Below, piece by piece: positions 6,743 through 59,833 of a stretch of DNA of 64,000 bases. The notes under the pieces were generated by a model. That model made no database searches. It had not been told where the DNA came from and saw only the letters and a program-made list of their open reading frames with translations. Position 1 is the first letter of the stretch. Every line of letters begins with the position of its first letter. Both the position numbers and the translations under genes were made by a program. Origin of the DNA: a virus; IMG/VR virus record IMGVR_UViG_3300000117_000016, positions 14,420 to 78,419 of that record. One strand, 5' to 3'.

Positions 6743-8320
6743 CTATACCTGCCATACCTTTTTTATTATCATTCCGTCTTTCTTTTTAGACTGTTCTAGC
6801 TTCATCACAGTCGTATTGTCAATAGACAGAAGGTTTTTAAAGGTTTTGAATTCTTCTGGGAAAATCACAGCATCCAAAGAACCTGTGCTATCTGTAACTT
6901 TTACAAATGCCATTTCTTGTCCTGGATTTGCTCCTCTTTTTGTTTTAATAATATTAACGTCTTTTATTTCTATACCAATCATTATATTGTTAGATGATAT
7001 TTTTGATTCTTTGAGTGTTCTACAGTCCGTATTAACAAAATTTAGATCACATTCGTCAATCTTAGAGCAAGATACGGCGATTCCAAGCAGTTGATTTTCT
7101 GTATCTGCTATCCAGGGTATAGTATCCGACAGACTATATGCTGGGTTTTTAACGGAACTCAATATTGACTCTACTGTTTTTTTTCTTCTGGCATTCACTT
7201 TGGTAAGAACACCCTCAATACATTCAGTGATGTTTTTGTATCCTGCTATATTAGTGATTACAAACTCTTTTTCTTTTTTTGTTAAGTTTGTTATTGCGTC
7301 GAAATCGAACAACATTCGTTTTCTGTCTACTTTAAAATAGTCAAAACATCCAACAGATATCATATTCTTAGATGCTGTTTTGTTAATATTGTCTAATACA
7401 ATAAACAATATTTGTAGATAAGAAGCTTTTTCAATGTCTATTTTTATTGTATCTAGTTTCTTAAATACTGAAGCACCAACTCCTTTAATATTGGTTAGTC
7501 CAAAATAAATACATTTGTCTTTTAGTACGAAGTCTTTATTTAATAATTTAAAGTTGGGATTACAAACGTCAATAGCCATTTCTCTACAATTGCTTACTAA
7601 TTCATATATTTCTTTTAGGGGATCTATTTTGTCTTTGGCAAACTTTAAATAAGATACAAAAAATCTAGAAGGGAAATGGGCCTTAACATAGGCAGATAGG
7701 TATGCGTTCATGGCATAACTAACGGCATGACTTTTATTAAAACTATATCTTTGGCTTTTTTCGATCCATCCAAAGATTTCTTCAGCTTCCTCTTCATTAA
7801 CAACATTTGCTTCTTTAGCCCCATTAATAAACTGCCTCTTAACTTGAGCCATCAAGTCAGCTTTTTTCTTACCAATAGCTTTGCGAAGAACATCAGCATC
7901 CTGCAAATTAAAGCCCGCTATTTTTTGAGCGATTTGCATAGCTTGTTCTTGATAAATCATTTCTCCATATGTAGATGACAGTATATCTTTTAAGCTGTCG
8001 TGATAATGGTCTACAGTTTCTAGACCATTCTTTTTATCTATATAATGATTAGAAACATTTTTGCCGTCTCGATAAGCCTCTAAACATCCTGGACGCAGGA
8101 TAGAGATGAGAGCAGAAAGCTGTTCTATATTTTGTGGTTTAAGTTTTTTAGACATGGTCTGACCAAGTCTAGACTCTAGCTGAAAGCAACCTTTTGTGTT
8201 GCCTTCTCCAATTAAATGCCAAGTGGTTTTACAATCTAGGTTTAAATTTTCAAGAGTAAGGTCTAAATCTACCTTACCTTTGTGTTTTTTAAACTTACAA
8301 TCACATCGTCTTTTATTCAT
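6743..8320 (-). CDS. DNA polymerase III alpha subunit, C-terminal part (split DnaE)
   Basis: 525 aa from ATG 8320 (start MNKRRCDCKF), overlapping the exonuclease stop. It begins inside the normal DnaE chain just after the palm: CFQLES near residue 46 and SALISILRPG mark the fingers, MIYQEQAMQIAQKIAGF about 121-137, and SFNKSHAVSYA about 193-203. A helix-hairpin-helix (TNIKGVGASVF) and a C-terminal OB-fold (about 440-525) follow. It contains none of the three catalytic aspartates, which lie in the separate gene at 9233-11083. The two chains must associate to form a polymerase. No intein sequence is visible at the start. The tail seems to end at the OB-fold, without a recognisable tau-binding domain. 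Confidence 0.9.
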   Translation of the reverse strand: MNKRRCDCKFKKHKGKVDLDLTLENLNLDCKTTWHLIGEGNTKGCFQLESRLGQTMSKKLKPQNIEQLSALISILRPGCLEAYRDGKNVSNHYIDKKNGLETVDHYHDSLKDILSSTYGEMIYQEQAMQIAQKIAGFNLQDADVLRKAIGKKKADLMAQVKRQFINGAKEANVVNEEEAEEIFGWIEKSQRYSFNKSHAVSYAMNAYLSAYVKAHFPSRFFVSYLKFAKDKIDPLKEIYELVSNCREMAIDVCNPNFKLLNKDFVLKDKCIYFGLTNIKGVGASVFKKLDTIKIDIEKASYLQILFIVLDNINKTASKNMISVGCFDYFKVDRKRMLFDFDAITNLTKKEKEFVITNIAGYKNITECIEGVLTKVNARRKKTVESILSSVKNPAYSLSDTIPWIADTENQLLGIAVSCSKIDECDLNFVNTDCRTLKESKISSNNIMIGIEIKDVNIIKTKRGANPGQEMAFVKVTDSTGSLDAVIFPEEFKTFKNLLSIDNTTVMKLEQSKKKDGMIIKKVWQV

Positions 8321-9056
8321 CTTTAAAACAATTCTTAAACTGTATCCTTTGTGCAAGGTTCTTGTGTAATTTCAAAAATCTTATTAGTATATTGGCGCAA
8401 TCTGTAACGTCTTTGAATGCGTCGTGAGCATTAGAGGAATCTATTCCCATGTAAGTTCTAATAGAATCTAATGAAATGGATTTAATTTCTGGCACGTACA
8501 TCAGCCATAATCCTATAACATACATTAGGTCAATTCTATCTCTAGGATGAAATATAGACGAGCTTTTTTCTTTTGCATCAAAGTTGTCATACGTTTCACT
8601 CAACCTATCTACAATCTTCATATCAAATTTATTAATATTATATCCACAGGCTATAGGGGCAGTGAATTTACTTTTTTTACTTTTGCCAGATCCTACTAAG
8701 TGATAATTGTCTAGATATCCTACAAATTGTTGCCAAGAATGTTTCTGTTCTGGATATTCCAGCCACTCACTAAGGATTTGACTTTTGTCAACACCCTTAA
8801 CCTTGCCATGCCAATCTAAGATATCAGAATCGGTATACGGATGATTATCTATTGTGACAGCCTTGGACTTCTCTTGTAATTCAAAATTAGCTAATTTAAT
8901 AGGCTTAAGATTTATATTAAATTCAGAGTCCTTAACTATCTCTAACCTGTAGGGGTCAACCATAACGGCAGCAAGTTGAACAGGACTGCATTCATTAGGA
9001 TTGGCCCCATCGGTTTCAAAATCAAATACACATATCTTATTCTTGTTTATGTTCAT
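8313..9056 (-). CDS. DnaQ-like 3'-5' exonuclease (DEDDh), proofreading
   Basis: 247 aa with the DEDDh set: FDFETDG (D12, E14), GYNINKFDMKIVD (D145), and SSNAHDAFKDVTD (H211, D216). It removes mismatched 3' ends. It is encoded between the two halves of the polymerase III alpha subunit and overlaps both neighbours by 8-20 nt, strongly suggesting it is the epsilon-like proofreading partner of that split enzyme. Compared with bacterial epsilon (about 180 aa catalytic domain) it has an insertion of about 40 aa (residues 60-115). Confidence 0.9.
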   Translation of the reverse strand: MNINKNKICVFDFETDGANPNECSPVQLAAVMVDPYRLEIVKDSEFNINLKPIKLANFELQEKSKAVTIDNHPYTDSDILDWHGKVKGVDKSQILSEWLEYPEQKHSWQQFVGYLDNYHLVGSGKSKKSKFTAPIACGYNINKFDMKIVDRLSETYDNFDAKEKSSSIFHPRDRIDLMYVIGLWLMYVPEIKSISLDSIRTYMGIDSSNAHDAFKDVTDCANILIRFLKLHKNLAQRIQFKNCFKDE

Positions 9057-9232: not shown

Positions 9233-11083
9233 TTATACTCCTTGTAATAGTGATTGTACACTCATCATTTTATCTAACAGGCCGATACCTAGTATATCAA
9301 ACTTTACTACACCAATTGATTCTAAGTCATTCATCTCTAATCCTGCAATATTTTTTTTGGTTTTAGCGTCGTAGATCATTGGGCAGATTGAGGATAGACT
9401 GCTTTGTGATATCGCTATACCTGCTGCATGTTTTGACTGATTGCATTTAGTTCCTTCTAATCTAATAGCTTGCTCAAATCTTTTTGCAAGTGGGCCGACT
9501 AATTTATCGTCTTTTAAATGACACCAATCTTTAAGTGGCTTTGGGTTGTTTTCTAAAGCCCACTTAATTATAGAGGCATCTTTCATTTCTTGTAATTCGT
9601 CTGCAATCTTAGCTTCATCTGGTATATGTTTTGTGATTTGATTCATTTCTTCAAAAGAAATATTACTATAAACTCTCAATACTTCCTTTAGTGAACCTCT
9701 ACCTTTTAGGGTATTATATGTAATCATTTGAGAGACTTTGTCTTGACCATATGTGTCTTTAATGTAATCAATAATATTTTCTCTTTGATCCATAGGTACG
9801 TCTACATCAATATCTGGCATCGACACTCTACCTCCTGTATTTCTACCAGCATTGTAAAATCTTTCAAAAATTAAGTCATACTTGATAGGGTCTATGGCAG
9901 TAATTCCAATAAGATAGGAAACAAGGCATCCCGCAGCACTACCTCTTCCTGGTCCAGGTAGCCATTTCTGCCTACGGACATGATTGACAATGTCTTGTAC
10001 AATTAAGAAGTAGCTAGACAAATCTGCTCCTTGTAGTACGTCTAACTCGTACTTAATCCTATCCACATATTGAGAATGTAATTCTTTGTCTACATCATTG
10101 GCGATCTTGTCTCTCCACCCATCTCTACAAAGCTGTCTCAAATATTCAGCTGGATCGTATCCTTCTGGACATTTAAAGTCTGGAAGATTTGGTGTTTCTA
10201 AAATATCATAATCTTCACACAAATTGTCTACTAAATTAGTATTATCTATTTCGTCTTCTGTATTTACTTCATTGATTTCTTCATGAGATAAGAGATGATA
10301 ACTATCGGACTTAAAGAAAGAATCTAATCCAAAATTTTCTCCGCTAGATAGTTTGCTGGCAACTTGTGGCAAAGTCATTTTAAGATTACTACATAATAAA
10401 ATTCTTTGATCTACAGCATCGTATCGTTCACAATAATGAGAGTCTATACTAGATATTTTCGGTATCTTATTTAAGCTACAAATATCCCTTAATTTATTGC
10501 CGATAATTTGTTGGTATTCATTCTCTTGATCCATTAGTTGTACTTCGACAAAGAAGTTATCTTTACCAAAAATTTCAGATAGCTCACCTATCTCTTTCTC
10601 TATTTGTGAATCTGAAATAAACTGGCCTTCTTTATGTATTTTATTAGCTAAGTAAGAACCAGGATGTCCACTCATACCAATGATATTACCTTGGGATAGC
10701 TTATCTTTCAATTTTTCTATATCCAATCTAGGCTTGTAATAATAATTATCTGGCTTATTAGATTCTGACACTATCTCAATTAGGTTTTTCCACCCTTTAA
10801 GGTTTTTAGATAACAGAAGCATGTGTGATAGTTTTCTGTTCTCTTTAGACTGTATATTACTGTCCTGATCTGATATATATAATTCAACACCAAGTATAGG
10901 CTTGATATTATTGTGTTTCATGGTTTGAAAAAAATTAATACAACCAGAAATTGATCCATGATCAGTAATGGCACAGCTAGACATATTAAGCTTATGACAT
11001 CTTGAAGCTACATCTTCTGGTTTAGAAAGACCATCCAATAAAGAGTAGTGTGTATGCAAATGCAAAGGCGTATAGTTTTTCAT
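9233..11083 (-). CDS. DNA polymerase III alpha subunit, N-terminal part (split DnaE)
   Basis: 616 aa. An N-terminal PHP domain keeps metal ligands (PLHLHTHYSLL, H8/H10/H12; AITDHGSISG, D41-H42). The palm follows with GPGRGSAAGCLVSYL (about 377-390), MPDIDVDVP (about 422-430, two catalytic Asp) and VVKFDILG near 593 (third catalytic Asp). The chain stops about 15 residues later, at the exact palm/fingers border, and the remainder of the enzyme is a separate gene at 6743-8320. It replicates the phage genome with the adjacent exonuclease. The ATG at 11083 directly follows the stop of the nuclease gene (TGAATG). Confidence 0.92.
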   Translation of the reverse strand: MKNYTPLHLHTHYSLLDGLSKPEDVASRCHKLNMSSCAITDHGSISGCINFFQTMKHNNIKPILGVELYISDQDSNIQSKENRKLSHMLLLSKNLKGWKNLIEIVSESNKPDNYYYKPRLDIEKLKDKLSQGNIIGMSGHPGSYLANKIHKEGQFISDSQIEKEIGELSEIFGKDNFFVEVQLMDQENEYQQIIGNKLRDICSLNKIPKISSIDSHYCERYDAVDQRILLCSNLKMTLPQVASKLSSGENFGLDSFFKSDSYHLLSHEEINEVNTEDEIDNTNLVDNLCEDYDILETPNLPDFKCPEGYDPAEYLRQLCRDGWRDKIANDVDKELHSQYVDRIKYELDVLQGADLSSYFLIVQDIVNHVRRQKWLPGPGRGSAAGCLVSYLIGITAIDPIKYDLIFERFYNAGRNTGGRVSMPDIDVDVPMDQRENIIDYIKDTYGQDKVSQMITYNTLKGRGSLKEVLRVYSNISFEEMNQITKHIPDEAKIADELQEMKDASIIKWALENNPKPLKDWCHLKDDKLVGPLAKRFEQAIRLEGTKCNQSKHAAGIAISQSSLSSICPMIYDAKTKKNIAGLEMNDLESIGVVKFDILGIGLLDKMMSVQSLLQGV

Positions 11084-47262: not shown

Positions 47263-47832
47263 TTATACTAGATTTTTGATATTTTTTAACGCTTTATGTA
47301 TATTTTGCCTAACGGCCTCTCTAGTTATATTAAAGCGTTGTCCTACTTTTTCAAGCGTATACCCTTCAAAGTAATACAACTTGATGAACTCTCTTTGGTT
47401 CTCTGTCACTAAATTAGAGTTTAATATATTATATATATCATTATTAAGAATATCTTCCGATTCTTTTTCTATAGCGATAGCACAAGGGTCCTTTTCCTTA
47501 GAGGGTATAGTATCCTTAATATTGGAAGAATCTTCATCTTTAGCAAAGTCTAATGAGGACTTCTTAGGTGCTTTATATTTTTTGGTAGCATAGGTCTGGA
47601 TTGCCCAAATAGCACATTGGTTTCTATACGAATACCTAGTCTTTTTTTGACCGGTTTTACCAGTTCTGTTTGCATCCCACTTCCAATCTCCTTGCATAAT
47701 TGCACTAGCAACATCAGAGATAGCATCTTCACTCTTCAGCATTTCTTTAGCTAAAGAGCCTCCGAACTTATTGATTGTTTTCTTAGCCAAGTTTAGATAT
47801 ATCTTCAGATCATCAAATTCAACATTTTCCAT
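47263..47832 (-). CDS. RNA polymerase sigma factor, sigma-70-like
   Basis: 189 aa from ATG 47832; AAAGGA about 8 nt upstream. A region 2-like part is SEDAISDVASAIMQGDWKW, then SYRNQCAIWAIQTYATKKY. Region 4 is ENQREFIKLYYFEGYTLEK, VGQRFNITREAVRQNIHKALK with the HTH. It would redirect host RNA polymerase to phage late promoters, which suits its place in the structural region. Late promoters themselves are not obvious to me. Confidence 0.88.
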   Translation of the reverse strand: MENVEFDDLKIYLNLAKKTINKFGGSLAKEMLKSEDAISDVASAIMQGDWKWDANRTGKTGQKKTRYSYRNQCAIWAIQTYATKKYKAPKKSSLDFAKDEDSSNIKDTIPSKEKDPCAIAIEKESEDILNNDIYNILNSNLVTENQREFIKLYYFEGYTLEKVGQRFNITREAVRQNIHKALKNIKNLV

Positions 47833-47859
47833 TATCAAGGTCCTTTGGTTCTAAATTAA

Positions 47860-52977: not shown

Positions 52978-53349
52978 CTACCACGCTTTACAAGACCAAT
53001 ATCTTGCCTTCCATTTAGGACCTGGGTTAGAACAATTATGTCTAGCACGAAAACTTTTACGTCTTGCTGGATCAGACTTCTTGATCTTCATATTAGGATC
53101 ACCAAAATTTACTTTGACAACATTGCCTTTTTCGTTTTTTACATATACACTACGTTTTTTTGGTCCGTCAGGAGTTAAGAAGGGTTTATTTAGTTGAACT
53201 TTTCTACCCTGATATTCTGCACCAAGAACTTTACCTTCTTCGTCATATATTTCAGAGGCTTCAATTTCTGAAACATACTCATCCCACTCTTCGTCCCAAT
53301 GGCATTTAGTAGAAAGCAAATTTGCTTTTATTTTTTCTATTAATGACAT
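52978..53349 (-). CDS. Conserved phage protein with RRKSFRARHNC motif
   Basis: 123 aa. The C-terminal signature is NMKIKKSDPARRKSFRARH, CSNPGPKWKARYWSCKAW with two cysteines, and the middle is RKVQLNKPFLTPDGPKKRSVYV. The 'R.SFRARH.C......ARYWSC..W' motif recurs in head or neck region genes of T4-like and other large phages. It is adjacent to virion-like genes. Function in assembly is likely but not established here. Confidence 0.7.
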   Translation of the reverse strand: MSLIEKIKANLLSTKCHWDEEWDEYVSEIEASEIYDEEGKVLGAEYQGRKVQLNKPFLTPDGPKKRSVYVKNEKGNVVKVNFGDPNMKIKKSDPARRKSFRARHNCSNPGPKWKARYWSCKAW

Positions 53350-53388: not shown

Positions 53389-54462
53389 TTACACCAATAA
53401 TAGCTCATCATGTACAATTTTAGAGGTATTATTCCACGTTAATGCTGCTGCTGTGTCTAAACCAGCTTTATTTGAACGTACATTATGCTTGTACACATAT
53501 CTCATATGTTCAACAATTTGCTCCATTTGCTTAACCCCTAGCTTTGCCCACTTTCCAGAGCCATCAAACCAGATGCCATCCACAGCAGGCTCTAATTCAT
53601 CTACATCCACCAAAAAACTATTGTCTTGATTACAATATGCTGTGTGAGCAGAATAATTAGTAGCAATCACAGGCTTGTCCATAGCCATAGTTTCAGGTAT
53701 CTCATTGTTCCAGCCTTCTGCTCTAGAGATATAAAGTCCACAGTCAGCTTCATAAATTACAGAAGCTAACTCAGAATGAGTTTTGAGTCTATCGAAGCAT
53801 TTAATCTTATCTCCTAGTTTACTTCCCATGTATAACTCTTGCCATTGCTGTATTTGTGCAGGCTGTAGGAAGGGATTGTGATTGACCATCCATAGCTCCA
53901 CATCATCATCCTTTGTGAAGGCTTCGTTAAATAGATGTACAAGGATGTCGTGACCTTTCCTGACTTCCCATTTGCCTATATTAATAAAACGATATGTAGA
54001 ACTCTCACTCTTAGGAGGCTTTGTACCGATGTTAAATATACTATGGTCTACGCCCAATGGACATATTTTGATTTTAGATTCGTCAATACCATGATTAGTA
54101 ATAATTTTTTTAGACCATTCACAAGTCGTAAATACAACATCAGCATGTTTTAGTCCTGCTACTTCTACTTCTTTTAATTTATCTATTTCAAAAAACGGAA
54201 AGACACCATATTTACCATTACCAACCCTACTAAAAAGATCGTGCATATGCCATATCTTTAGACACGGATCACTTCTAGTATCTCCAGACATAGTGTTGTT
54301 CATGTCTTCCTGCAAAAGTTTTGCGTCATTAGGATTTTCTAGAGATATATCACCTACGGGATAAATAGAAATGTCTGTTTTTTTTCTAATGTTTTTCCAA
54401 ATATTAGTAGAAGTAATACCATATCCAGTTGTATTGTTTATAGGCGCTAAAAAATTAATCAT
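53389..54462 (-). CDS. Glycosyltransferase, GT4-like
   Basis: 357 aa. FLAPINNTTGYGITSTNIWKN is the GT-B N-terminal loop; FTTCEWSKKIITNHGIDESKIKICPLG, INIGKWEVRKGHDILVHLF, LGLYISRAEGWNNEIPETMAMDKPVIATNYSAH contain the GT4 motif (E-x7-E modified as 'EGWNNEIPETMA'). A sugar is transferred from a nucleotide donor. It starts a second accessory gene set (53389-56966). Confidence 0.82.
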   Translation of the reverse strand: MINFLAPINNTTGYGITSTNIWKNIRKKTDISIYPVGDISLENPNDAKLLQEDMNNTMSGDTRSDPCLKIWHMHDLFSRVGNGKYGVFPFFEIDKLKEVEVAGLKHADVVFTTCEWSKKIITNHGIDESKIKICPLGVDHSIFNIGTKPPKSESSTYRFINIGKWEVRKGHDILVHLFNEAFTKDDDVELWMVNHNPFLQPAQIQQWQELYMGSKLGDKIKCFDRLKTHSELASVIYEADCGLYISRAEGWNNEIPETMAMDKPVIATNYSAHTAYCNQDNSFLVDVDELEPAVDGIWFDGSGKWAKLGVKQMEQIVEHMRYVYKHNVRSNKAGLDTAAALTWNNTSKIVHDELLLV

Positions 54463-55493
54463 GAATATATCCTATTGTGAGTATTGTTTACTTTAATAAA
54501 TGTTGTATTCTTCCCCATGTCTTTTAAGTTTTTAGCACCAATGTATGTGCAACAACTTCTCAAACCTCCTAAAATATCTTGAATAGTATGTGAGGTTTTA
54601 CCCTTATATGGTATTGTAACACATTTGCCCTCACTAGTTCTATAATCAGCAACTCCACCACTGTGTTTATCCATAGCCCGTTTGCTGCTCATACCATAAA
54701 ACTGTAATGATTCTTTTTCTTTACCCTTATTATATGTCCAATCTCCTTCACAGCAATCTGTTCCTGCCAACATTCCTCCAAGCATAACAAAGTCTGCATT
54801 ACCACAAAAAGCCTTACATACATCTGCGGGAGTTGTACAGCCTCCATCACTACAAACATGACCACCTACGCTGTGAGCAGCATCAGCACATTCTATAATA
54901 GCAGAAAGTTGAGGGTATCCTATGCCAGTTTTTAATCTAGTGGTACAAACACTTCCTGACCCTATACCTATCTTGACTATATCTACTCCACCATGAAAAA
55001 TTAATTCTTCTGTCATTTCAGGAGTAACAACATTGCCTGCCATAATAATAATATCAGGATACCATTCCCTAATTTTTTTGATTGTAGATACAAATTTTTC
55101 GTTATATCCGTTAGCTACATCAATACATAAATTAGGTTTCTTTTGTAGATTATCGTATACAGTACTTAGTTTTTCTATATCTGATTCAGATATACCCATA
55201 GAATAAAAAGCATACTGTCTGGGAAATTCAAAATGATCTCGTAGCTTTTTGGATTTATAATGTTTGTGTAAACAAGTTATGCAGTCGTAACCTGACAAAA
55301 CTTTGTTCATGCTAATAGAACCTGTCGTGTCCATATTTGCTGCCATAATAGGAACACAATTTAATTCTCTATTAGAATGAGGAAATTTAAATACTCTGTT
55401 TAATTCTACCTGTGATCTACTGGATATATTAGATCTTTTAGGTCTGATTAAAACATCACTAAAATCTAATTTTGTGTCTTCAGATATTTTCAC
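54459..55493 (-). CDS. guaC: GMP reductase-type IMPDH/GMPR enzyme
   Basis: 344 aa from GTG 55493 (GTGA overlap). IGIGSGSVCTTRLKTGIGYPQ holds the active-site Cys, and 'KTGIGYPQ' favours GMP reductase over IMP dehydrogenase. FYGMSSKRAMDKHSGGVADYRTSEGK also fits GMP reductase. TIM-barrel; the CBS domain of IMPDH is absent. It converts GMP to IMP with NADPH, so it would recycle purines for DNA precursors. Uncommon in phages. Confidence 0.85.
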   Translation of the reverse strand: MKISEDTKLDFSDVLIRPKRSNISSRSQVELNRVFKFPHSNRELNCVPIMAANMDTTGSISMNKVLSGYDCITCLHKHYKSKKLRDHFEFPRQYAFYSMGISESDIEKLSTVYDNLQKKPNLCIDVANGYNEKFVSTIKKIREWYPDIIIMAGNVVTPEMTEELIFHGGVDIVKIGIGSGSVCTTRLKTGIGYPQLSAIIECADAAHSVGGHVCSDGGCTTPADVCKAFCGNADFVMLGGMLAGTDCCEGDWTYNKGKEKESLQFYGMSSKRAMDKHSGGVADYRTSEGKCVTIPYKGKTSHTIQDILGGLRSCCTYIGAKNLKDMGKNTTFIKVNNTHNRIYS

Positions 55494-56440
55494 AACTGAA
55501 CCCCAACATACATAACCATAGATGGGTTTGCAAACATATTGAAGTCATTGTTGTTCTTTACAAGAATATCAGCATGAAAAGTTACATGCTCACAATTAGA
55601 TCCATTATACCTACCTGATAAATATTTGTCAGCTTTATATATACAGCAACCCCCAAAGGCACTATTAACTTTAATCGGTGGAGAACCAGGAAGGGGTAGC
55701 CACCATTGGAACCAATACATAAGTCCTCTTGACTGAACATCTGCCCAATGGTTAAGTCTAAACGCCCAAGAGTCGTACCCTGTCAATAATATATCTTTAG
55801 ACTTATATCCTTCAGTAAAATCTACACGTTTAAACAAAAAAGAGAATCCTGCAATAGCATCTACTTTGTTATTAGAAGCCAACCAGCCCATACTGTTTAA
55901 TATGCCATCAACTGATAAATCCATAAAGTCTGTATCAATTACAATAACATAATCAACTTTATCTTGTAGAGATTTTACATAGTCCTGACATTTATTTCTG
56001 GCATGAGCCATATTTTCTGTTCTAACTGTGGACATAGATAAAGGTAAATACGGAGCACCTCTTTCTTCAGACTCTATTGTTGCATTGTCTTTGCCTTCTG
56101 CCCATTGGTTTAAAACCTCTACAGTATTATCTTCTGAATCGTTTTCATATGTATAGAAATATACCTTTTTAAATAAGGGCTCTACATTGTCTGAAAGCAT
56201 TTTTAGATTTCTACTCAAAGCATCTGCTGAATTTCTAGATATACTAACAATAGCGACAGTACTATCGTTCGCTAGCTTTTTACCAGATTCAATCATACTT
56301 AAATACTGAGCATGAAATTCAGTAAGAATATTGTCAATGTGCATCTTTTCAAAAAAAGCCTCGGCACTTTTTTCTTTCGTCAACTTGTGAGCTTGATCTA
56401 AATCTCTGAGTTTCTGTTTATCGGTTATAAAATCAGACAT
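55490..56440 (-). CDS. GT-A glycosyltransferase (Anp1/GT62-like)
   Basis: 316 aa. VAIVSISRNSADALSRNL, KKVYFYTYENDSEDNTVEVLNQWA, ENMAHARNKCQDYVK and YVIVIDTDFMDLS form the pattern of Anp1/CAP59-like transferases, in which 'YENDS.D.T' and 'IDTDF' (DxD) bind the nucleotide sugar. FGGCCIYKADKYL follows. It overlaps its neighbours by 4-8 nt. Role in glycan synthesis is likely; substrate unknown. Confidence 0.75.
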   Translation of the reverse strand: MSDFITDKQKLRDLDQAHKLTKEKSAEAFFEKMHIDNILTEFHAQYLSMIESGKKLANDSTVAIVSISRNSADALSRNLKMLSDNVEPLFKKVYFYTYENDSEDNTVEVLNQWAEGKDNATIESEERGAPYLPLSMSTVRTENMAHARNKCQDYVKSLQDKVDYVIVIDTDFMDLSVDGILNSMGWLASNNKVDAIAGFSFLFKRVDFTEGYKSKDILLTGYDSWAFRLNHWADVQSRGLMYWFQWWLPLPGSPPIKVNSAFGGCCIYKADKYLSGRYNGSNCEHVTFHADILVKNNNDFNMFANPSMVMYVGVQL

Positions 56441-56966
56441 AATTAAAAAAGCACCATCTTTCCGTAAGCTCTAAAGACATATTGTTATTTATATCTGTCA
56501 GATATTCTTGTACCTCTGACCATTCACTGAAAATCATATTGTGAGGAATTGTACCAAATAACCAATCAGGAGTTTTGTTCTTACCTTGAGCGACATGTAT
56601 AATAATAGGCTTCTTTTGTCTATTAGCCCAAAAGATTTCTTCCAGAGTTCCGCATGGATGAGTATCAATATCTAAATTTACTATTAAAAAATCACTGACA
56701 TCTACCATTCTTAGGTCTACACTTCTGATGCCTCTCATTAACTCTGAAAGTTCATCATACTTTCCTGCTTTCTTTAGCTCTCTTTTGTGCCTAACAACAG
56801 AATCGTCTTCTACACCTAAATTAGTGGGTTTTTTAAGAGGATTAAAAACTTCTACACCTAAAGATTCCAAGAAAGGTGTGACGAAATCTCTCCACTGACT
56901 ACCTCTGTCCGGTACTCTGTCTATAGCACCAGCCAAATAACATCTTTGCTTATAAAGTCTTTTCAT
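56433..56966 (-). CDS. Nucleoside 2-deoxyribosyltransferase-like protein
   Basis: 177 aa from ATG 56966. CYLAGAIDRVPDRGSQWRD, SVDLRMVDVSDFLIVNLDIDTHPCGTLEEIFWANRQKKPII fit the nucleoside 2-deoxyribosyltransferase family (SSF52309) with the catalytic Glu in 'GTLEEI'. It would move a deoxyribosyl group between bases, or cleave a nucleotide. The same fold occurs in defence/anti-defence NAD-processing proteins, which is worth noting because the next gene pair includes a macro domain. Confidence 0.8.
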   Translation of the reverse strand: MKRLYKQRCYLAGAIDRVPDRGSQWRDFVTPFLESLGVEVFNPLKKPTNLGVEDDSVVRHKRELKKAGKYDELSELMRGIRSVDLRMVDVSDFLIVNLDIDTHPCGTLEEIFWANRQKKPIIIHVAQGKNKTPDWLFGTIPHNMIFSEWSEVQEYLTDINNNMSLELTERWCFFNYV

Positions 56967-56968
56967 CA

Positions 56969-57130
56969 CTAGTCCATATACAGAAAAACTATATTGTCTT
57001 TAGATGGCTCTGCGGCTGGCAGCTTGCCATCTCTTGTCATCTTAATATTATTCCTACCCTGTTGTATTCCACACCAAGAGCAATACAAAACAACCAATAT
57101 AAAACTTATTTCAAACATTTGTTGGCTCAT
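56969..57130 (-). CDS. Small single-pass membrane protein
   Basis: 53 aa from ATG 57130 (or 49 aa from ATG 57118). FEISFILVVLYCSWCGIQQG is a membrane helix with two cysteines; the rest is polar (MTRDGKLPAAEPSKDNIVF). It lies between the deoxyribosyltransferase-like gene and the macro-domain gene, and the start overlaps the latter. Function unknown. Confidence 0.5.
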   Translation of the reverse strand: MSQQMFEISFILVVLYCSWCGIQQGRNNIKMTRDGKLPAAEPSKDNIVFLYMD

Positions 57131-57638
57131 AAATAAAACACGAGAAATCTCTTGCCCAGATATCATTAATTAAATTACCGATAGTCTTCCAATCCCCTCC
57201 TGCAAATCCCGTTCCGAATTTTGGTGCATGGATTTGTATTTTCTTATCTGTGTTATTAGCTAAAATTTTTGCTTGCGTTCTAATTTGTAGCATACAGGCA
57301 GCTAATGCTCCATAATCTAACATCCTATTATACTTACTTCCGCTGTGTTTGCAATACATATTTGCACAAATAATTTGATTTTTATTCTTATTGATACTCA
57401 CTGGTATGCATTGAATATTTCCTAACTTATTCTTTGTAGAAATATCTATATTATCTTTTACTATAGGGAATTTTTTATATAAAATATTAGAAAATTTAGA
57501 GTTGTTCTTTGTTGTAACACCTATAGCATTTGGTATAATTACCGTAATATCATTAGTGTTATTTACATTTTGTTCAATAACATAAAATATATCTTTTTTA
57601 GACATAAAATACTTATTTTCACTGTGTCTTAACTTCAT
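57111..57638 (-). CDS. Macro-domain protein
   Basis: 175 aa. The ADP-ribose-binding core is DITVIIPNAIGVTTKNNSKF, LDYGALAACMLQIRTQA and IQIHAPKFGTGFAGGDWKTIGNLI, the last being the 'GxGxAGGxW' signature of Poa1p-type macrodomain phosphatases. It may bind or process ADP-ribose or related metabolites. In phages this would suit counteraction of NAD-derived defence signals or tRNA repair. The gene starts at ATG 57638 after the zinc-ribbon gene. Confidence 0.8.
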   Translation of the reverse strand: MKLRHSENKYFMSKKDIFYVIEQNVNNTNDITVIIPNAIGVTTKNNSKFSNILYKKFPIVKDNIDISTKNKLGNIQCIPVSINKNKNQIICANMYCKHSGSKYNRMLDYGALAACMLQIRTQAKILANNTDKKIQIHAPKFGTGFAGGDWKTIGNLINDIWARDFSCFIYEPTNV

Positions 57639-57639
57639 C

Positions 57640-57888
57640 TTACCACTTTCCTAACGGACATTTCTGATCTTGCCACGCCAGCTTATTCATAAATTCTTTT
57701 TTCTTAGATATGTTACATCCACACTCAGAGCATTCCATAATGGGTAAATTTTTAGTGTCAAAAGAATCACAATCGTAACATATCTCAAACCTAGTATTGA
57801 TAGTAAACTGGCTGGCTTTAGGCATACCTTTTGTAGTATGCTTAAATAGAGACACAGCAAAGTTTTTTATCTTTTTAAATATTGTCAT
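57640..57888 (-). CDS. Zinc-ribbon protein with CPLGKW tail
   Basis: 82 aa from ATG 57888 (overlapping the stop of the 59-aa gene, ATGA). FEICYDCDSFD, MECSECGCNISKKKEFMNKLAW and CPLGKW make a pair of zinc-binding CxxC motifs. The tail 'K..KCPLGKW' recurs in many short phage zinc-ribbon proteins. Nucleic-acid or protein binding is likely; function unknown. Confidence 0.7.
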   Translation of the reverse strand: MTIFKKIKNFAVSLFKHTTKGMPKASQFTINTRFEICYDCDSFDTKNLPIMECSECGCNISKKKEFMNKLAWQDQKCPLGKW

Positions 57889-58064
57889 TTGTAATATTGC
57901 TGCCACTCTTCCCACAATTCATCTTGCTGTATATCTATCTTCCTATGTCTAAAATCATGCTTTTGATGTCTAATATTTTTAGACTCAATAACATCTATAT
58001 TCTTCTTCTTGATTCTGACAACCTCTTGTTTTCTTACATTCTTATTTTCTTCGATTTCTTTCAT
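57885..58064 (-). CDS. Short basic protein (59 aa), hypothetical
   Basis: Open frame from ATG 58064 to TGA 57885-57887. It reads MKEIEENKNVRKQEVVRIKKK at the start (without the last base beyond 21) and ends ELWEEWQQYYK. GAGGGAT lies 4-8 nt upstream, and a TTGACT/TATAGA promoter is upstream. The stop overlaps the next gene's ATG (ATGA), the same coupling used across the window, so this is probably a real gene despite its length. It is highly charged and basic and could bind nucleic acid. Function unknown. Confidence 0.7.
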   Translation of the reverse strand: MKEIEENKNVRKQEVVRIKKKNIDVIESKNIRHQKHDFRHRKIDIQQDELWEEWQQYYK

Positions 58065-58082
58065 TTCATCCCTCAGTACTTT

Positions 58083-58111
58083 ATTCTATATCCTTCAGCA
58101 CCAAAAGTCAA
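58083..58111 (-). promoter_or_regulatory. Sigma-70-type promoter before the 59-aa gene
   Basis: Minus strand TTGACT (58106-58111), 16-bp spacer, TATAGA (58084-58089, within TATAGAAT 58083-58090). It lies in the 91-base gap between the subtilisin-like gene and the 59-aa gene, about 20 bp upstream of the ribosome site. It probably starts transcription of the macro-domain/deoxyribosyltransferase group. Confidence 0.6.
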
Positions 58112-58155: not shown

Positions 58156-59070
58156 TTATATATTATGCAGGTGGTGAGGTTTAATAGGGTATAGGATTCC
58201 ATAGCCCTCATATTTCTTTTGTCCTGAATACATTGGATTGGTTAAACTTTTGCAAGTTTGTTTAAAGGCATCAACTAACTCAAATCTATTCAATCTTCTG
58301 CCTGCACAAGACATAGCCAAGGCTGCACAACCAACTGCGAATGGATTACTCATACTTGTACCACTTAGTTTAGCGTATCTGTTATTAGGAACACAACTAA
58401 GTATGTCTTTTCCGGGTGCTAAAAAGTCTAAAGTATTACCGCTGCAACTAAAGTTAGTTCTTTTAAAATCTATATCTATAGCTGCTATACTTATTGTAGA
58501 TGAATATTTAGCAGGATACATAATGTCTGTTGCTGGGCCACTATTTCCTGCTGCACAGAATATAACACAGCCTTTAGAAGAAGCATAACTTACTGCTCTC
58601 TCTAAGTATAAAGAATTTACAGGACTACCTAAACTCATTGTAATTATATCGGCTCCATTATCAGCAGCCCAAATTAATCCTTTACATATACCCTTGAGGC
58701 TACCGGAACCATCATCACCCAATCCTTTTATGGGCATAATTTTAGCTTTTGGTGCTACCCCTACCATGCCTAAATTGTTGTCACTTGCTGCTATTGTACC
58801 GGCTACATGAGTACCATGACAGTTGCGGTCTATAGGTGCTTGTCCTTCTTCTATAAAGTTATAGCCGTCTATTAAATTTCTTTTTAAATCATCGTGGTTA
58901 AGATCACATCCGGTGTCAATGACAGCAATCTTGACACCTTCTCCCATACTATATTTCCAATATTTTTGTATTTCAAATTTCTGAATTTCCCAACCATAAA
59001 ATTGACCTGTCTTTGAGTCTAGACCGAAAACATCTTCTCTAATATATGGAAATAATTTAACTTTTCGCAT
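58156..59070 (-). CDS. Subtilisin-like serine protease (S8)
   Basis: 304 aa. Catalytic residues: D52 (AVIDTGCDLNHDD), H85 (CHGTHVAGTIAA), N176 (CAAGNSGPA), S239 (LSGTSMSNPFAVG). The oxyanion and strand motifs (FLAPGKDILS) are standard. No signal peptide or long propeptide is seen, so it may be cytoplasmic or virion-associated, or exported by another route. Overlaps the trypsin-like gene by 14 nt. Confidence 0.9.
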   Translation of the reverse strand: MRKVKLFPYIREDVFGLDSKTGQFYGWEIQKFEIQKYWKYSMGEGVKIAVIDTGCDLNHDDLKRNLIDGYNFIEEGQAPIDRNCHGTHVAGTIAASDNNLGMVGVAPKAKIMPIKGLGDDGSGSLKGICKGLIWAADNGADIITMSLGSPVNSLYLERAVSYASSKGCVIFCAAGNSGPATDIMYPAKYSSTISIAAIDIDFKRTNFSCSGNTLDFLAPGKDILSCVPNNRYAKLSGTSMSNPFAVGCAALAMSCAGRRLNRFELVDAFKQTCKSLTNPMYSGQKKYEGYGILYPIKPHHLHNI

Positions 59071-59833
59071 CTTTTATAATCTCTTCTAAAAGTTTTTGTG
59101 TTTTAGTTATCCATTCAGCATAATCACTTATTCTTGTACTACACCCAACATCACCAAAATCAGAATCACTTTTACCATCAGTTGCATATACATAAGAATT
59201 TATGCCTGCAATTTTTTTATCTATAAATAAACCACCACCACTATCTCCTGGTGATATTAAAAACTCTAATGTTGTTTTGGGTTCTGTATGAACAGAATAT
59301 GTTAAACAATTATCATTAATAGCATCGATAACATTAGACCCTGCTCGTCTTTTGTTGTCAAAAGTACCTGTAGTATAGCCACTATTAAAGTCACCATGAT
59401 AACCATATCCAGCTAGTCCACAAACTTTACCTTTTTCATTAGTATCAGTATAGAGTTCTGGATAATAATCTAACTTTAAAGGTCTTTGTAATCTAGCTAT
59501 AGCGATATCGTTTTTACCCATAACTTTACTATCGTAATCAATATGAACTGCCACTATTGAACAGGGATATGCTTTACCCTCATATAAAACGTGTTGGCTG
59601 ATAGAGCCTGTGACTACATGAGCAGCGGTTAATATGTAATATTCATTTATAACTACACAGGAGGCTCTGAATTGAGTGTTTAGCTTATCTCCTAGAATAC
59701 CAACAATAGGTAATACACACTCATATTTTTCGCCATATTCTACATATTTTGAGTCTGGTGTTGCTGGGTCAATAGTTCCGCAATAAGCCTGAATAGGCAT
59801 CAGCAATAACAGAGCCAAGACAAGGTATTTCAT
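59057..59833 (-). CDS. Secreted trypsin-like serine protease (S1)
   Basis: 258 aa. The first 18 residues (MKYLVLALLLLMPIQAYC) form a Sec signal peptide. The chymotrypsin triad is H72 (LTAAHVV), D109 (KNDIAIARL) and S198 (PGDSGGG). Cys pairs CVV...CSI and CGLAG..CLTY would make disulfides after export. It probably acts in the host periplasm or outside. It could process envelope or surface proteins, or aid lysis; not typical for phages. Confidence 0.9.
   Translation of the reverse strand: MKYLVLALLLLMPIQAYCGTIDPATPDSKYVEYGEKYECVLPIVGILGDKLNTQFRASCVVINEYYILTAAHVVTGSISQHVLYEGKAYPCSIVAVHIDYDSKVMGKNDIAIARLQRPLKLDYYPELYTDTNEKGKVCGLAGYGYHGDFNSGYTTGTFDNKRRAGSNVIDAINDNCLTYSVHTEPKTTLEFLISPGDSGGGLFIDKKIAGINSYVYATDGKSDSDFGDVGCSTRISDYAEWITKTQKLLEEIIKDAKS

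Follow-up and report, generated by a model that had tools for sequence, protein, structure and literature searches.

Macrodomains that act on ADP-ribose derivatives are known from type II Thoeris, where the effector carries one, and from DarTG. Among those of the ALC1-like kind, SCO6735 takes ADP-ribose off thymidine in DNA and counters DarT; its Asn27 and Gln85 are required, its His24 is required structurally, and its Val25 has been proposed to hold the catalytic water (PMC9411070). Phages commonly encode macrodomains, and a review has proposed that they mainly counter soluble ADP-ribose signals there (PMC9503650). Nucleotide N-glycosidases and phosphodeoxyribosyltransferases of the nucleoside deoxyribosyltransferase (NDT) superfamily, such as DNPH1/RCL, MilB and the phage enzyme DmtZ, and a GMP reductase in a pelagimyophage group have likewise been described. 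Here we analyse a locus that brings relatives of all of these together, on the minus strand of a window of 64,000 nucleotides (the whole stretch of DNA analysed, bases 14420-78419 of the 79,778-base virus record IMGVR_UViG_3300000117_000016). Phage macrodomains, NDT-fold phage enzymes and phage GMP reductase are thus already known singly; what is new is an operon conserved within a clade of uncultured phages, a nearly invariant, distinct family of NDT-fold proteins that is found across phages and some Planctomycetota and lacks a curated model, and a macrodomain sub-lineage that has lost its active site yet is under selection.

An earlier reading of the window (the original prediction) had described a cluster of five genes ending at 56433, with its own promoter, and had proposed it as an anti-defence island linked to NAD and ADP-ribose. 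All five open reading frames exist, on the minus strand. They encode a 59-residue charged, Lys/Arg-rich protein (b59; 57885..58064), an 82-residue zinc-ribbon protein (ZnR; 57640..57888), a 175-residue macrodomain protein (57111..57638), a small predicted single-pass membrane protein of about 53 residues (~56969..57130) and a 177-residue protein with the nucleoside-deoxyribosyltransferase/DNPH1 fold (DRT; 56433..56966), where the coordinates of the last four reflect refined starts, that of DRT being an ATG at 56966. Each gene is under purifying selection when the window is compared with its relatives: the ratios of nonsynonymous to synonymous substitution rates (dN/dS) against locus L001 are 0.15 for b59, 0.04 for ZnR, 0.07 for the macrodomain gene and 0.04 for DRT, and that of the membrane protein against L042 is 0.20. 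The proposed end of the cluster did not survive, as the gene run extends unbroken into a glycosyltransferase-like gene that overlaps DRT (GT2; 55490..56440, minus strand; PF11735, E 1e-4, under the cut-off), a GMP reductase gene (GuaC; 54459..55493, minus strand) and a conserved downstream gene for a group 1 glycosyltransferase (GT4; 53389..54462, minus strand; PF13692, E 1e-12). The cluster genes abut or overlap, with junctions ATGA and TAGTGATG, and it is an ATGA overlap that joins the start of ZnR to b59.

The same block is kept in about 80 related loci of uncultured phages, in the recurring order protease-(promoter)-small charged protein-ZnR-macrodomain-DRT-GMP reductase-GT4. ZnR lies within 200 bp upstream of the macrodomain gene in 68/80 testable loci, DRT follows the macrodomain gene in 69/79, always on the same strand, GMP reductase follows DRT in 69/77, and GT4 is present at 57 of 76 macrodomain loci. 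GMP reductase was also found in 31 of the 32 related phage records that were searched; these records are fragments, and an absence among them is not proof. Members of the clade turn up repeatedly in IMG/VR and their DNA is AT-rich (about 32-34% GC, 34% for the genome studied here), yet the operon is hardly seen in cultured-phage collections, and a DNA-level search of cultured phages gave no match.

The promoter at the head of the block reads TTGACT-17-TAGAAT (58083..58111, minus strand) and scores 10/12. A single match of this quality means little alone, because the region holds no excess of promoter-like sites over its shuffles (41 versus 43.3); its reality is settled by comparison across relatives, in which a TTGAC..TAnnAT pair stands at about the same intergenic position, downstream of the protease gene, and in which 42 of 54 distinct intergenic segments carry a site of at least 10/12 where shuffles would give 3.4. 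The original prediction was right about the promoter and its TTGACT element, but the TATAGA it proposed is two bases out of register with the actual -10 element, and the early expression it suggested is something we can only infer. The promoter is of the sigma70 type and differs from the usual Bacteroidota promoter.

The match of DRT to PF05014 is borderline (E 2.4e-6, 28.1 bits against a cut-off of 28.8), and a sequence search of the PDB gave nothing significant and one weak match to blasticidin M, so that comparison of folds was required. The predicted structure, with a predicted local distance difference test score (pLDDT) of 89.6, matches 7o62 with Z 14.7 and a root mean square deviation (rmsd) of 2.5 over 133 aligned residues, CtNDT with Z 13.6 and DNPH1 with Z 12.8, which by fold places DRT in the NDT superfamily, as had been proposed. 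Like DNPH1/RCL, MilB and DmtZ, it combines this fold with a Tyr-Asp/Asn-Glu pattern and lacks the Asp that binds a 5'-hydroxyl; unlike them, from which it differs at less than 25% identity, it has motifs of its own (MDRV.DRG..WR, HPCGT.EEIFWANRQKKP and PDWLFG). In the 178-residue numbering used here, Tyr11, Asp85 and Glu111 are invariant in 40 phage sequences and in 18 from the wider family, reaching Planctomycetota, and the spacing of 26 from Asp to Glu equals that of D62/E88 in CtNDT and N77/E103 in DmtZ. Six residues before the Glu, where nucleoside enzymes have the Asp or Asn that binds the 5'-hydroxyl, DRT has Pro105, and the wider family has Pro, Leu, Thr, Met or Ser. Uncharged residues occur in the corresponding pocket of DmtZ and of nucleotide hydrolases too (PMC12884076), and the replacement therefore favours a 5'-monophosphate as substrate. 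DRT is moreover the most conserved member of the cluster (59-98% identity to the window copy, with 66 invariant residues), in contrast to the macrodomain proteins (27-89%), and this argues for a metabolic role over one in an arms race. Its conservation, its pairing with GMP reductase and the missing 5'-hydroxyl-binding Asp point to a 5'-nucleotide N-glycosidase or transferase of purine metabolism.

Relatives of DRT also turn up in metagenome-assembled genomes (L063-L064, L069-L078), where the close ones are in Chitinophagia and Flavobacteriales bins that resemble phage contigs, and distant ones of 270-290 residues are in Planctomycetota and other assemblies; the names of such bins are weak evidence of host.

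The gene two places downstream of DRT is a full-length match to the GMP reductase equivalog NF003470 (507.6 bits, cut-off 397), which was preferred to an IMP dehydrogenase naming. GMP reductase converts GMP to IMP. What distinguishes this copy is its location, in a phage and in a cluster with a DRT-fold enzyme. In one related record (L142, G029:C1:103615-104742) the reading frame of GMP reductase is broken by an in-frame TGA and TAA.

In the explanation we favour, and hold with middling confidence, the cluster forms the promoter-proximal portion of an operon conserved in an uncultured, AT-rich clade of tailed phages; a host-type sigma70 promoter drives it, DRT and GMP reductase are its metabolic core, and the macrodomain and zinc-ribbon proteins make a second, linked unit. 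Like DNPH1 and DmtZ, DRT would most likely act on a purine 5'-monophosphate and cleave (or transfer) its N-glycosidic bond, with Glu111 as the nucleophile, assisted by Tyr11 and Asp85, and together with GMP reductase it would move the purine supply during infection from guanine to adenine nucleotides, to serve a genome of low GC content. The ancestral macrodomain most likely took ADP-ribose off DNA (lesions of the DarT type) or another ADP-ribose conjugate; in the lineage of the window, where the active-site loop is lost, its function is probably reduced to ligand binding, or its activity has changed. The genes and their order, the conservation of the promoter, the folds, the kept and lost residues and the purifying selection are observed; all substrates, the direction of purine flow, the time of expression and a possible link between the macrodomain and DRT proteins are inferences.

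Several points weigh against this explanation. The residues of DRT were mapped onto those of NDT enzymes by motif spacing and not by superposition of coordinates, and its substrate cannot be read from sequence. The DRT, TIR and SLOG superfamilies share a common fold class, some members of which cleave NAD+ (PMC9503650). In four loci (L009, L024, L039 and L050) a solo DRT gene lies beside, or divergent from, structural genes, with neither a macrodomain nor a GMP reductase gene within 6 kb; DRT therefore has a function of its own, and its pairing with GMP reductase is not obligatory. The conserved order itself may reflect shared descent and not joint function. Finally, the nine macrodomain sequences with degenerate active sites form one group (support 89/96), but on long branches, which leaves their single origin uncertain.

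The macrodomain protein is where the proposal of an anti-defence island has most to draw on. It contains the GTGFAGGDW motif noted in the original prediction, and its predicted structure (pLDDT 87.7) is that of an ALC1-like macrodomain of the SCO6735/BT1257 type, matching BT1257 (2fg1) with Z 20.7 and rmsd 2.1 over 149 aligned residues and SCO6735 (5e3b) with Z 18.2 and rmsd 2.3 over 140, ahead of TARG1 (Z 17.4), Poa1p (16.4) and DarG (16.2). The family profile agrees, with E 4e-19 against BT1257 (2afc; 2fg1 was also matched) and 8e-16 against SCO6735. The Pfam Macro model PF01661 was matched neither in its own record nor among the Pfam hits of the protein, and since the relatives L026 and L007 are likewise missed, the model is insensitive to this branch of macrodomains. 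Searches by tblastn and PHROGs connect the protein with Tk.4 of T4-like phages, a family named 'phosphatase' (phrog_335, ~30% identity), which is thus phage-encoded as well but differs in that many T4-like copies adjoin unrelated genes, such as a valyl-tRNA synthetase modifier; DRT was found by tblastn in none of these Tk.4-bearing phages, and in one uncultured 595-kb phage record only.

Most phage relatives of the protein share the HxCN, NMxxQ and GxGxxGG motifs of SCO6735 and BT1257, and 69 of 83 phage macrodomain sequences retain the equivalents of all three of His, Asn and Gln. The window copy differs from SCO6735 and BT1257 in being encoded next to a zinc-ribbon gene in an operon of a phage, and also in its active site: it reads PNAIG and NMYCK, with Asn37, Ala38, Gly40 and Lys97 at the positions of His24, Val25, Asn27 and Gln85, and so lacks the residues that SCO6735 needs for hydrolysis. 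In a single-sequence search against solved structures its C-terminal half, with GTGFAGGDW, still aligns, and its N-terminal half no longer does. That the gene is a pseudogene is ruled out by its dN/dS (0.07 against L001, as given above, and 0.23 against L042), and it is therefore still in use; judged from these residues, the likeliest role for the protein is binding without hydrolysis, or else a new activity. For the family as a whole, countering DarT is plausible because most relatives retain the residues with which SCO6735 de-ADP-ribosylates thymidine; a counter-defence role is thus a plausible one for the family, with the weakest case being that of the window's own copy.

That the whole block is a counter-defence module, in which the macrodomain would remove or sequester ADP-ribose marks or signals (DarT-modified DNA or TIR-derived conjugates) and DRT would degrade or replenish a signal nucleotide, is possible but, we think, doubtful. 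The type of macrodomain, with a DarT-reversing relative, the active residues kept in most of its kin, the frequency of macrodomains in phages, the proposal that they act on soluble signals (PMC9503650) and the presence of the same family in T4-like phages as Tk.4 all speak for it, and to this extent the original prediction stands. It is opposed by the lost active site of the window copy and by the constancy of the block, where an anti-defence island would be expected to have variable accessory content, and DRT is the most conserved protein of the cluster, stands close to GMP reductase and occurs solo in other phages. A PADLOC scan of the macrodomain, DRT, ZnR and membrane proteins gave nothing significant, with only the two proteases upstream matched, to generic protease-bearing models. 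None of the 32 related records, which are partial, contains DarT (PF14487), NADAR or a NAMPT-type (NAD-salvage) gene. AdfA and AdfB, the anti-DarT factors already described, probably work through binding to DarT. The operon resembles ordinary equipment for nucleotide metabolism more than an island devoted to anti-defence.

If, instead, the locus served a modified genome, DRT would be a DmtZ-like phosphodeoxyribosyltransferase for the making or sanitising of a non-canonical deoxynucleotide, and GMP reductase would provide or remove purine precursors. The kinship to DmtZ, a phage enzyme of the same fold, class and triad pattern, and the very strong conservation of DRT fit such a role, which we nevertheless regard as unlikely: adenylosuccinate synthetase or PurZ-type genes (PF00709) are found in none of the 32 partial records, and no DNA modification is known for these phages. 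Quite unlikely, too, is that the macrodomain and the small membrane protein form a split pair like the type II Thoeris effector or an ADP-ribose-signal decoy, the macrodomain being a repurposed non-catalytic binder, and that DRT is a new class of N-glycosidase acting on a nucleotide that would be new as a substrate for this fold. The gene for the membrane protein overlaps the macrodomain gene and is restricted to the sub-lineage of the window (its closest relatives, L001, L042 and L048 and their duplicates, with a hydropathy peak of 2.2-2.8). Thoeris type II and DarTG differ from the present case in that here a stand-alone macrodomain lies beside a separate membrane protein, with no DarT in the 32 records and no PADLOC match. 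Very unlikely is a clean-up role in RNA repair, in which the macrodomain would follow a Tpt1/KptA 2'-phosphotransferase as a Poa1p-like phosphatase of ADP-ribose-1''-phosphate. The PHROG name 'phosphatase' and a Z of about 16 against Poa1p would suit it, but BT1257 and SCO6735 beat Poa1p in sequence and fold, the catalytic loop is lost in the window copy, and KptA/Tpt1 (PF01885) appears in none of the 32 partial records, although such a partner could be host-encoded.

The conserved pairing of GMP reductase with an enzyme of N-glycosidase fold leads to a specific proposal for how these phages might remodel the purine pools of their hosts. For the macrodomain family, the coexistence of intact copies and copies without an active site offers a natural comparison, and hence a direct handle on the anti-DarT hypothesis.

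The first two genes of the operon are small. ZnR has a CxxC...CxxCGC...C pattern and matches phrog_13558 (E 1e-7). The b59 family, for which no known family was matched, consists of charged proteins of 58-79 residues with an EE(L/I)WEDW-like motif at the end, at about 50 distinct loci. In many loci (L005, L006, L025 and others) a protein of an 86-residue class (MKYLEEL.PG..F...) lies between b59 and ZnR; it is missing from the window. Directly upstream of the promoter a subtilase (58156-59070) and a trypsin-like protease whose start resembles a signal peptide (59057-59833) lie side by side, the former in 40/72 and the latter in 51/72 related macrodomain loci. Beyond GT4, a 123-residue protein (52978-53349) without Pfam or NCBIfam match is present in 51/62 loci at 52-96% identity, and is sometimes much longer.

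Most of the longer open reading frames of the window are on the minus strand, including genes for a DNA polymerase, a primase, DnaB, a UvsX-like protein, ribonucleotide reductase and a head protease. A protein with sigma-70 region 4 (47263-47838) is encoded beside the head protease genes and is matched in 41/62 related loci. The gene for a DNA polymerase III-alpha-like protein is in two parts (9233-11083 and 6743-8356), with an exonuclease-subunit-like open reading frame (8313-9056) between them.

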